A stretch of 64,000 bases of DNA from an uncultured Acetatifactor sp. (lineage in GTDB: Bacteria > Bacillota > Clostridia > Lachnospirales > Lachnospiraceae). Below, one piece after another: positions 21,969 through 35,838 of this stretch. Below the pieces are notes generated by a model. That model worked only from the letters and a program-made list of their open reading frames with translations. It searched no databases and had not been told where the DNA came from. The translations under genes were made by a program, and so were the position numbers. The stretch is from NCBI GenBank assembly GCA_947629645.1, contig CANREV010000003.1, positions 62,001 through 126,000 on the forward strand. The letters run 5' to 3'. Position 1 is the stretch's first letter. Each line of letters begins with the position of its first letter.

Positions 21969-22003
21969 GTAACAGTTCAGCCTTCGGCCGACTGAACTGT
22001 TAC
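21969..22003. repeat. Palindrome AACAGTTCAG, terminator-like, element family member
   Basis: GTAACAGTTCAG (21969-21980) and CTGAACTGTTAC (21992-22003) form a perfect 12-bp stem around CCTTCGGCCGA. It starts three bases after the kinase stop. No T-run follows, so it is not a classical terminator, though it may stabilise the 3' end. The same AACAGTTCAGCC end occurs at 35113. Confidence 0.7.
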
Positions 22004-27420: not shown

Positions 27421-27448
27421 CGCAGTCTGCGCGGATGGTTTTGGAGGT

Positions 27449-27475
27449 AACAGTCTGGCCAAAGGCTGAACTGAT
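27449..27475. repeat. Degenerate AACAGT...GGCTGAACTG palindrome
   Basis: AACAGTCTGGCC (27449-27460) and GGCTGAACTGAT (27464-27475) form an imperfect inverted repeat. Its right arm is the same as the right end of the 35258-35272 terminal repeat. It lies 29 bases after the ruvB stop. Confidence 0.5.
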
Positions 27476-27479
27476 AGTC

Positions 27480-33918: not shown

Positions 33919-34974
33919 TTATACATTCTTTATGATTTCAAGCTCAGGATGATCCAGCAGGTTCAAAATCTGACTTTCCGCATTTTTCAGTACAGGACGG
34001 AAGTATTTGGTAGGATTGATCATAAATACTTCCCAGACGCTGTCATCGTTTAACTGGACGCTGGTGCCGAGCTGCGCATCGGAGATACGCTTCATCAGGG
34101 GAAGCAGCAGCTCCGCATCGTATTTTTCCCTTGTCTCGTTAAAATTATCGAGGATCTGCAGCGGTGTGAGGGCGCTTCGGTAGCTTCTGGGGGAAGCCAT
34201 AGCGATATAAGTGTCGATGATGCCCACATAGCGCGCAAACAGATCGATCTTATTTCCCTTCGTATGGAAAGGATATCCGCTGCCATCCATGCGCTCGTGG
34301 TGCATGGCAGTGACGTTTTTGATCCGCTGATTGACACTGGTGCCGTTTAAGATCTGATAGCCCAGGGCGGGATGCTTCTGCACGATGGCAAACTCCTCCG
34401 CGGAGAGCTTTCCGGGTTTCCAGAGGACGTTGTAGGGGAGTTTTAATTTGCCGATATCGTAATAAAAGCAGGAGAGTATCAGCGTCTCCTTGTCCTCCTG
34501 ATTCATCTGGATCCATTCGGCAAAGATCCCTGCCAGAAGCGCCGCGTTCAGACAATGGTTAAAAGTAAGCTCGTCCTCATTGGGCATGAGGTTATACAGA
34601 AAGTCTAACAGCGTGGTCCCTGTGTTATATGTACTGCGAAGATCGTTGTAGAGCTCCAGAAGCTCACCGTCAGGAATAAATCCGCCCTCCGCGGCAAGGA
34701 AATCGTTCATCAGCTGCTTGTACCGATAAAGATTTGCGGAATGCTTCTGCTCGAACGCTCTGAAATGTTCGTTGTAACGGACCCTTTCATAATGGGTGGA
34801 AGCCAGGTCGATCCCTTCCTTGACAGTCACGCACATGATGGAATAGCGGTGCAGTTTATCGATAGCGGCTTGATCCAGCACCGTATCGGCTTTGTAAAGT
34901 ACATTGCCCTGATTGACGACATCCTCTCCCAGTATCATTCCGGGGGTTAATTCCATTCGCGCTACAACTTTCAT
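33919..34974 (-). CDS. HD-GYP domain protein with degenerate HD motif
   Basis: A 351-residue protein with an N-terminal region of the kind preceding HD-GYP phosphodiesterases (LTPGMILGEDVVNQGNVLY) and an HD-GYP domain from about residue 130. The GYP part is intact: HHERMDGSGYP at 225-235, with KPGKLSAEE and H201. The HD dyad reads Y172-D173 (FYYDIGK) instead of HD, which removes a metal ligand. HD-GYP enzymes degrade cyclic di-GMP and related dinucleotides; this one may be inactive, altered or a binding protein. It has its own strong promoter and is the only - strand gene in the area. Confidence 0.88.
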   Translation of the reverse strand: MKVVARMELTPGMILGEDVVNQGNVLYKADTVLDQAAIDKLHRYSIMCVTVKEGIDLASTHYERVRYNEHFRAFEQKHSANLYRYKQLMNDFLAAEGGFIPDGELLELYNDLRSTYNTGTTLLDFLYNLMPNEDELTFNHCLNAALLAGIFAEWIQMNQEDKETLILSCFYYDIGKLKLPYNVLWKPGKLSAEEFAIVQKHPALGYQILNGTSVNQRIKNVTAMHHERMDGSGYPFHTKGNKIDLFARYVGIIDTYIAMASPRSYRSALTPLQILDNFNETREKYDAELLLPLMKRISDAQLGTSVQLNDDSVWEVFMINPTKYFRPVLKNAESQILNLLDHPELEIIKNV

Positions 34975-35054: not shown

Positions 35055-35082
35055 AGTATAGAATATTCTCTAAAAATGTCAA
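35055..35082 (-). promoter_or_regulatory. Promoter of the HD-GYP gene
   Basis: On the - strand TTGACA (complement of 35077-35082) and TATACT (complement of 35055-35060) are 16 bases apart. The -35 is perfect, and the leader is about 73 bases. Confidence 0.7.
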
Positions 35083-35112
35083 TAAATTATTCCATATTTT
35101 GACTATTTTGAT

Positions 35113-35272
35113 AACAGTTCAGCCAGCAGGGATTGAAGGAGCAACATCATGCCTGCATGAATGTCACTCCTTCAATCCCGGCTGAGGGAGCGCCATTTCA
35201 TGAGCAAAGGCAGGCGCATAGCGCCGGAAAGCGCGGCAGCGCGACTTTGCGAATGGCGCTGGCTGAACTGTT
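35113..35272. repeat. 160-bp structured element with 15-bp terminal inverted repeats
   Basis: The ends AACAGTTCAGCCAGC (35113-35127) and GCTGGCTGAACTGTT (35258-35272) are perfect inverted repeats. Inside are two further stems. The first is GGGATTGAAGGAG (35129-35141) with CTCCTTCAATCCC (35167-35179), a perfect 13-bp stem whose loop side also pairs. The second is AGCGCCATT (35189-35197) with AATGGCGCT (35252-35260), enclosing GCAAAG/CTTTGC and two small GC hairpins. The layout is a three-way junction, as in a structured RNA or a MITE-like palindromic element. No ORF with a ribosome binding site and no clear target-site duplication was seen. Confidence 0.7.
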
Positions 35273-35290
35273 CCCTGTATTTTTACTCTC

Positions 35291-35357
35291 AATTGGGACT
35301 TACCAAAAATTGGGGTTTCCCCAAATTGGGGTTTACCCAATTTGGTAAGCCCCAATT
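35291..35357. repeat. Second palindromic cluster (AATTGGG repeats)
   Basis: AATTGGGACTTACCAAA (35291-35307) pairs with TTTGGTAAGCCCCAATT (35341-35357) at 16 of 17 positions. Between them AAATTGGGG/CCCCAAATT and AATTGGGG/CCCAATT segments can pair in alternative ways. AATTGGG words recur four times in alternating orientation. The cluster starts 18 bases after the 160-bp element. Confidence 0.65.
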
Positions 35358-35393
35358 TATTATCTTTTAGATTACAAAAGAATTTTTCTATGA

Positions 35394-35469
35394 TATAATG
35401 ACCTTATTCCAAACTGGGGACGGCCGGATGGCCATCAAAATCATGAATGTTCTTCATTCATGATATAAT
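35394..35469 (+). promoter_or_regulatory. Promoter region with palindrome abutting the -10 box
   Basis: Two TATAAT boxes are present. The first (35394-35399) has ATTACA 17 bases upstream. The second (35464-35469) directly adjoins a perfect palindrome ATCATGAATG (35440-35449) / CATTCATGAT (35455-35464). The palindrome occupies the place of the -35 region and looks like an operator for the gene at 35515. Confidence 0.45.
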
Positions 35470-35514
35470 AGGCGCAAAGGCGATATCATCGGTGTGAGAG
35501 GTTGGGGAGCGCCA

Positions 35515-35838
35515 ATGGCGAGCAGGTTAAACTATCATTCCAAATTGTATCTGAGCGAGAGCATCACAGGGAAAAAGCTGGATAAAATAAAGAAAAAGCT
35601 GGAAAACAGACCGCTGCTTTCGGGTGTGTTCCTGATCGCCATATCGGCAAACCGGTCTGACCAGCTTGATATTTTTGACGCCAGACAGCTGGTACAGCCC
35701 TATTATCGGCATAATCCGCCCTATGTGATCGGCATAGCAAAAAATCGTGAGGAGGCCTTTGCCGTGATAGAAAAGATTGTGCAGGAGTGTCTGCGGGAGA
35801 GAGGGGACTGCGCTCTGAAGGAGTATCTGTTATGCTGA
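35515..35838 (+). CDS. Conserved hypothetical protein
   Basis: A 107-residue soluble protein opening ASRLNYHSKLYLSESI. It has no membrane segment or catalytic motif I recognise. The stretch VFLIAISANRSDQLDIFDA followed by YVIGIAKNREEAFAVIEKI suggests a small alpha/beta fold. ATG 35515 follows GGGGAG at six bases; a GTG at 35494 lacks such a site. Its stop overlaps the start of the DUF2953 gene (ATGCTGA), so it is the first gene of a unit with DUF2953 and gerW. A sporulation-related role is possible from this context only. Confidence 0.75.
   Translation: MASRLNYHSKLYLSESITGKKLDKIKKKLENRPLLSGVFLIAISANRSDQLDIFDARQLVQPYYRHNPPYVIGIAKNREEAFAVIEKIVQECLRERGDCALKEYLLC

Follow-up and report, generated by a model that had tools for sequence, protein, structure and literature searches.

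Background

MITEs are short, gene-less, multi-copy elements with inverted ends and flanking target duplications. Ends that begin with GTAA, together with 8-bp duplications, are typical of IS66 elements. Within the ISBst12 group of IS66, ISDge4 has GTGACTACTCAGCA and GTAACTGCTCAGCA as its ends, and its direct repeat, CCTCGATG, is 8 bases long (PMC12898284). A different kind of relative is Clostridiales-1 RNA (RF01699), for which the corresponding row in a table of the 2010 paper reads 'y n n' (PMC2864571). In the literature that could be consulted, mostly outside subscription journals, no description of RF01699 or of the family treated here as mobile was found.

The element at 35113-35272 of the 64-kb window (the window being the whole stretch of DNA analysed) shares features with each of these. 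It is like MITEs in size, lack of genes, inverted ends, copy number and target duplications. It is unlike them in its interior, a branched fold in which pairing is kept and motifs are conserved, and which is not visibly left over from the IS66 interiors found here. Ends of the GT(A/T)AC..TTCA type and 8-bp duplications are shared with ISBst12-group IS66 elements (ISDge4, PMC12898284), whereas the element has no transposase gene, its body was not found in the IS66 loci searched, and its ends differ from those of the IS66 elements found here at 3 or more of 14 positions. As in Clostridiales-1 RNA (PMC2864571), there is a closing helix, a hairpin with a GCTTGC-like tip and an ATGAGCA / TGCGAATG arm, and one relative with a GTAACAG-type left end exceeds the Rfam cut-off for that family; unlike RF01699, the element is without the fourth hairpin, its third arm bears a second mini-hairpin, and its closing ends are different. 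In our judgement the element is very probably a MITE with IS66-type (ISBst12-like) ends, whose body is a maintained fold probably related to RF01699.

Structure of the element

The first-pass annotation had described a pair of perfect 15-bp terminal inverted repeats enclosing a branched fold, and these can be read directly off the sequence: the repeats AACAGTTCAGCCAGC (35113-35127) and GCTGGCTGAACTGTT (35258-35272), a perfect 13-bp stem of GGGATTGAAGGAG (35129-35141) with CTCCTTCAATCCC (35167-35179), and a second compound stem of AGCGCCATT (35189-35197) with AATGGCGCT (35252-35260) that contains GCAAAG/CTTTGC. The ends shared by the family, GTAACAGTTCAGCC...GGCTGAACTGTTAC, lie two bases farther out, at 35111-35274, where this copy has AT...CC and the family GT...AC. 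On the + strand, to which all features of the element are referred, the left terminal inverted repeat accordingly spans 35111-35127 (ATAACAGTTCAGCCAGC here, GTAACAGTTCAGCC in the family) and the right one 35258-35274 (GCTGGCTGAACTGTT followed by CC, which is AC in the family). Hairpin P2 (35129-35179) has a fast-changing stem in which pairing is kept, and a conserved tip, CATGCCTGCATG in this copy and GCTTGC or GCTCGC in most aligned copies. Arm P3 (35190-35259) contains GCGCC...ATGAGCAAAG / CTTTGCGAATGGCGC, blocks that are invariant in the 22 aligned copies described below.

The two GC mini-hairpins that had been noted within this arm, P3a (GGCGC-ATA-GCGCC, 35213-35225) and P3b (GCGC-GGCA-GCGC, 35231-35242), are both present in the consensus fold of the 22 copies, whereas the minimum-energy fold of the 35113 copy pairs these bases otherwise. 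The centroid fold of this copy does show P3a, in which double changes occur at one of five pairs, in 11 of the 22 sequences. The pairs of P3b are invariant in the 22 sequences, so covariation is no test of it. Folded as RNA, 35100-35285 reaches -90.7 kcal/mol; 200 dinucleotide shuffles average -59.6 (sd 4.2), which gives z = -7.36, and none of them was equally stable. As had been claimed, there is no convincing ORF, with three overlapping frames of 63-71 aa. An Rfam scan of the 64-kb window returned no family at its gathering score.

Copies, shared ends and target-site duplications

BLAST against the own genome gave 20 matches, three of which are the palindrome read backwards, leaving 17 places including the 35113 copy; four of these (the 35113 copy among them) are near full length and 13 are partial or variant. 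The end motif RYAACAGTTCAGCC has 26 exact sites in the own genome and its reversed control pattern none. A covariance model built from the 22 copies (R1) matched at least 11 places in the own genome and at least 34 of 61 genus genomes, own included, both counts being lower bounds since scoring was confined to the best 48 candidates of each genome; BLAST by itself found the element in 15 of the 61. A scan of named genomes yielded at least 120 stretches, and the carriers among the 80 matches listed belong to Acetatifactor, Mediterraneibacter, Dorea, Roseburia, Lachnoclostridium and unnamed Lachnospiraceae, together with others labelled merely Eubacteriales, Clostridiales, Bacillota or Firmicutes. 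The family is thus gene-less, multi-copy and dispersed, as MITEs are.

In the loci examined, 123 elements of 60-330 bp have paired ends. The bases just beyond the end motif are largely shared, with G in 91 and T in 81 of the 123 for the left GT, and A in 86 and C in 78 for the right AC. Immediately outside these ends an 8-bp direct duplication is perfect in 22 of the 123 and agrees at 7 or more of 8 positions in 33; when right flanks were shuffled (2000 trials), the mean was 0.22 perfect duplications with a maximum of 3, and the maximum at 7 or more of 8 was 4. One own-genome copy (L024, C42:8968-9127) has a perfect 8-bp duplication. At the 35113 copy itself no duplication is recognisable, its flanks being alike at 5 of 8 positions, and the end bases are degenerate. 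The mobility of the family is well supported. The first-pass annotation had proposed that multiple copies with compensatory changes and neighbours that are not conserved would mark a mobile or REP-like element; its suggestion of a MITE-like palindromic element is supported by the many copies, the 8-bp duplications, the double changes that preserve pairing, and the relatives that have the neighbouring genes without the element.

The window also holds a minimal palindrome made of two ends alone (21969-22003; GTAACAGTTCAGCC TTCGGCC GACTGAACTGTTAC), which has probably arisen from the family by shrinking, and a degenerate two-end palindrome at 27447-27477.

The locus with and without the element

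The element lies between divergent genes, as first described: a gene for an HD-domain protein on the - strand (33919-34974; Pfam match to PF13487) and a small gene on the + strand that starts at 35494 or 35515 (from 35494 it would extend to 35838, and 35494-35838 has no Pfam match). In relatives, ten loci giving the best HD-domain matches were compared: at five of them the HD-domain gene still stands beside the 35515 gene with the element absent, and in the other five this gene pair is not kept. The five element-free gaps measure 241, 323, 159, 124 and ~172 bp, against 540 bp at the own locus; the precise insertion base could not be aligned in them. The family is carried elsewhere in two of these genomes, G005 and G006; the other three (G009, G012 and G015) gave zero R1 matches among the best 48 candidates scored, which leaves G005 and G006 as the informative carriers of the family. 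A non-coding RNA tied to this single locus is ruled out by the five relatives that hold both neighbouring genes without the element.

Between 34900 and 35600 there are 7 promoter-like sites where 1.6 are expected. The three on the + strand all lie beyond the right end of the element. Of the - strand sites, two precede the HD-domain gene, one overlies the left end of the element and reads outward, and one, to the right of the element at 35489-35460, would be directed towards it. A site of the form TTGACA-16-TATACT at 35055-35082 (- strand; a consensus match only) is upstream of the HD-domain gene and outside the element. Across the family, 81 of the 106 elements that could be oriented had usable flanks when naive ORFs of at least 100 aa were counted, 22 elements being overlapped by an ORF. 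The gene on the 5' side is co-directional in 21 of the 81 (p 1.7e-5), and that on the 3' side in 41; with an ORF threshold of 150 aa the 5'-side count is 24 of 81 (p 3e-4).

Two further repeats occupy the gap to the right of the element. A second, unrelated dispersed repeat at 35389-35470 consists of a promoter-like TATGATATAAT start and a hairpin, with a fold z of -2.5; it has 28 more matches in the own genome, several in tandem pairs ~70 bp apart, and by eye a similar block is present in the orthologous gap of G005. At 35293-35365 there is a compound inverted repeat of AATTGGGG units that is terminator-like on the + strand.

Conservation of the fold

Removal of 17 elements that could not be oriented left 106 of the 123 paired elements, among them 77 distinct ones of 150-170 bp, reduced to 76 by dropping one (L194) that was unlike the others. 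Anchor motifs parsed 63 of the 76, of which 29 had one segment layout and 22 of these equal length; the last form alignment A1. In A1 (22 of the 76 copies), pairing is kept in 96.8% of pair cells, and double-sided changes occur at 21 of 59 pairs, hairpin P2 accounting for 20. When the partners were slid by 1-3 columns, 4-12 double-changed pairs and 32-39% pairing resulted, a comparison in which the counted structure is favoured over its slid versions as it was predicted from the same 22 sequences; none of 500 shuffles attained the observed pairing values. P1 and the P3 stems show hardly any variation in their pairs, which are therefore uninformative on pairing. The first-pass annotation had allowed for a chance inverted duplication, with neither homologues nor covariation in relatives; homologues and covariation were both found, and a chance inverted repeat is ruled out by the fold z, the 26 end sites against none for the control, and the double changes.

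Among the mismatches in P2, G-U outnumbers A-C by 75 to 35 in 64 elements, those of 74 in which the stem is clear, and by 42 to 21 in 35 elements after clustering (p 0.011 by cells, 0.052 by elements). This excess points to the strand as read (+) as the folding strand, and it is moderate evidence for that strand. The motifs ATGAGCA / GCGAATG and the P2 tip are conserved across copies beyond plain pairing.

Relation to Clostridiales-1 RNA

The alternative of a structured RNA, also raised in the first-pass annotation, has some substance, in that the body resembles RF01699 across its full length. The 35113 copy gives a full-length match of 35.6 bits, below the gathering cut-off of 48. All ten GTAACAG-type element loci that were compared, three of which had been picked since they were found by an earlier search, match RF01699 at 29.6-54.5 bits, and one is above the cut-off: L050, a relative whose left end and body are the same, at 54.5 bits. 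A further RF01699 match of 50.8 bits (G063:C43) overlaps an R1 match. Under stricter filters, RF01699 had no match in the own genome at E 0.001. The 33 model positions of hairpin P4 of RF01699 correspond to 1 base in the 35113 copy, which does not have the P4 layout.

In the reverse direction, R1 was run on 47 loci, and among RF01699 copies without GTAACAG ends it found five at E < 0.01 (L040, 7e-6; L042, 1.9e-5; L108, 7.8e-5; L047, 0.002; L044, 0.007) and missed the rest. The alignment of the best of these (L040) covers P1 and P2 alone. The R1 matches in L101 and L045 are stretches neighbouring RF01699 copies, and the one in L045 is without the conserved motifs. Plain hairpin families score on the 35113 palindrome too, mir-550 reaching E 2e-4. 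Taken together, the sequence comparisons suggest that the body of the element is likely related to RF01699.

RF01699 is itself multi-copy, with at least 38 matches in one complete genome (G006). A subfamily there has the ends TGATGCC...CATCA and is flanked by 5-bp duplications in 6 of 11 copies against 0.8 expected (maximum 4 in 2000 shuffles), a count made on the 11 of 14 copies with both ends and at a length, 5 bp, chosen after looking; at 4 bp it is 1 of 11 and at 6 bp 2 of 11. Among the other RF01699 copies of this genome, 12 of 20 start -8 to +2 bases from the end of a co-directional (naive) ORF, and the closing stems differ between copies. Both kinds of closing stem are present among twenty RF01699 copies from other genomes. 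Some RF01699 copies thus look mobile, judging by their ends and flanks. Three tandem RF01699 copies of ~155 bp each were observed directly after a co-directional ORF in G006 (L118, 1501-1969).

A probable IS66 partner

The 35113 family has the IS66/ISBst12 combination of GTAA-starting ends and an 8-bp duplication, by comparison with the IS66 loci and with ISDge4 (PMC12898284). Among 86 partly overlapping loci obtained by searches for IS66 transposases are seven distinct insertions whose ends are of the GTNACNNTTCA type and whose 8-bp duplications are perfect, the enclosed gene having been checked for two (L279 and L274). The nearest IS66 ends in these loci differ from GTAACAGTTCAGCC at 3 of 14 positions. 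Counting against an IS66 partner, no exact GTAACAGTTCAGCC ends were found on IS66 in the loci examined (138 genus and 397 family genomes queried with one protein, up to 30 loci being taken from each set), and the own draft genome has no IS66 transposase.

The best link of the body to IS66 is provided by two loci of G006, a genome with two IS66 copies that have GTAACTATTCAG ends. One (L101, 1709-1884) is a complete element with the same body and the ends GTAACTATTCAG...CTGAATCGTTAC; compared with the resident IS66 end, the left one is identical over 12 bases and the right one agrees at 11 of 12. The flanks of this element are alike at 6 of 8 positions. The other is a hybrid copy in L112, whose first 16 bases are those of the resident IS66 end. 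The whole of this hybrid (L112, 440-900) has a left end like that of the resident IS66, a body as in the 35113 element and a right part from a TGATG-type RF01699 copy. Presence of the two in the same genomes shows no association: the element occurs in 12 of 19 genomes with IS66 and in 22 of 42 without (Fisher p 0.58; table counted by hand, with presence of the element taken from the best 48 candidates per genome). IS66 is the probable partner.

Other origins were considered for the family. R1 had 0 matches in 10 IS66 loci searched, and as the body was not found in these loci the element is no simple deletion derivative of these IS66. At least 20 pairs of ends lie more than 400 bp apart, as would be expected of an autonomous element; this candidate was set aside, the two pairs that were inspected (L229 and L243) enclosing ordinary-looking genes as judged from their translations.

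Alternative explanations

The resemblance to RF01699 raises the possibility that the element is primarily a structured RNA with a function, namely a divergent form of Clostridiales-1 that is expressed as a transcript and works in the cell, its many copies being secondary. The full-length match, the score of L050 above the cut-off, the double changes that preserve pairing and the single folded strand indicated by the G-U excess in P2 would all fit; the RF01699 copies of G006 show a similar excess (after clustering, G-U 10 against A-C 2, with p 0.039 by cells and 0.18 by elements), and more than half of the non-TGATG copies there begin at the end of a co-directional ORF. We nevertheless consider this rather unlikely. 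The 35113 copy falls under the Rfam gathering score in a genome without an RF01699 match at E 0.001 under the stricter filters, mir-550 and other plain hairpin families also score on the palindrome, and the element is not conserved at its locus. Moreover, from 34900 to the element there is no promoter-like site on the + strand that reads into it, and the 5'-side gene is directed away in 60 of 81 elements.

The fold may also be questioned from the other side, as palindromy kept by template-switch repair of quasi-palindromes with no selection for the fold. Such repair can alter both arms at once and would thereby mimic covariation. It would not be expected to conserve the ATGAGCA / GCGAATG motifs and the P2 tip, which go beyond plain pairing, nor to produce the moderate excess of G-U over A-C, and we regard it as improbable. 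It is far less probable still that the element is a palindrome of REP type that owes its spread to a RAYT (Y1) transposase. The palindromes are dispersed and some are in tandem, several RF01699 copies have GTAG beside a hairpin, and Y1_Tnp has two matches in the own genome. The fixed ends and 8-bp target duplications speak strongly against it, as REP elements are not known to make them. Two carriers, G029 (at least 48 R1 matches) and G035 (24), are without a Y1_Tnp match, and on these grounds, together with the ends and duplications, this origin is rejected.

Proposed mode of spread and implications

Read as a MITE with IS66-type ends, the element would be a non-autonomous miniature transposon, gene-less and moved in trans by a transposase, presumably one of the ISBst12-like group of the IS66 family that leaves 8-bp duplications. 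The IS66 partner may have been lost from the own genome or may be missing in the draft. The body would be a branched single-strand fold related to RF01699, its pairing maintained, that may act as RNA or as single-stranded DNA. Conceivably the host tolerates insertions because of the fold, or the fold aids the persistence of the element.

A broader proposal, which we put forward tentatively and hold to be possible, is that Clostridiales-1 and the element both branch from a single structured single-strand module that transposon ends of unrelated kinds have carried, GTAAC with 8-bp duplications in the 35113 family and TGATGCC with 5-bp duplications in G006. The catalogued 'small RNA' would then be structured cargo that is mobile, with selection on its fold independent of the transposase that moves it. 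These observations suggest that an Rfam family regarded as a candidate structured RNA since 2010 is at least partly a mobile element, and if this is true the annotation of its many copies would change. With strong covariation and mobility together, the family can serve to test whether the fold serves the host, an RNA or transposition.
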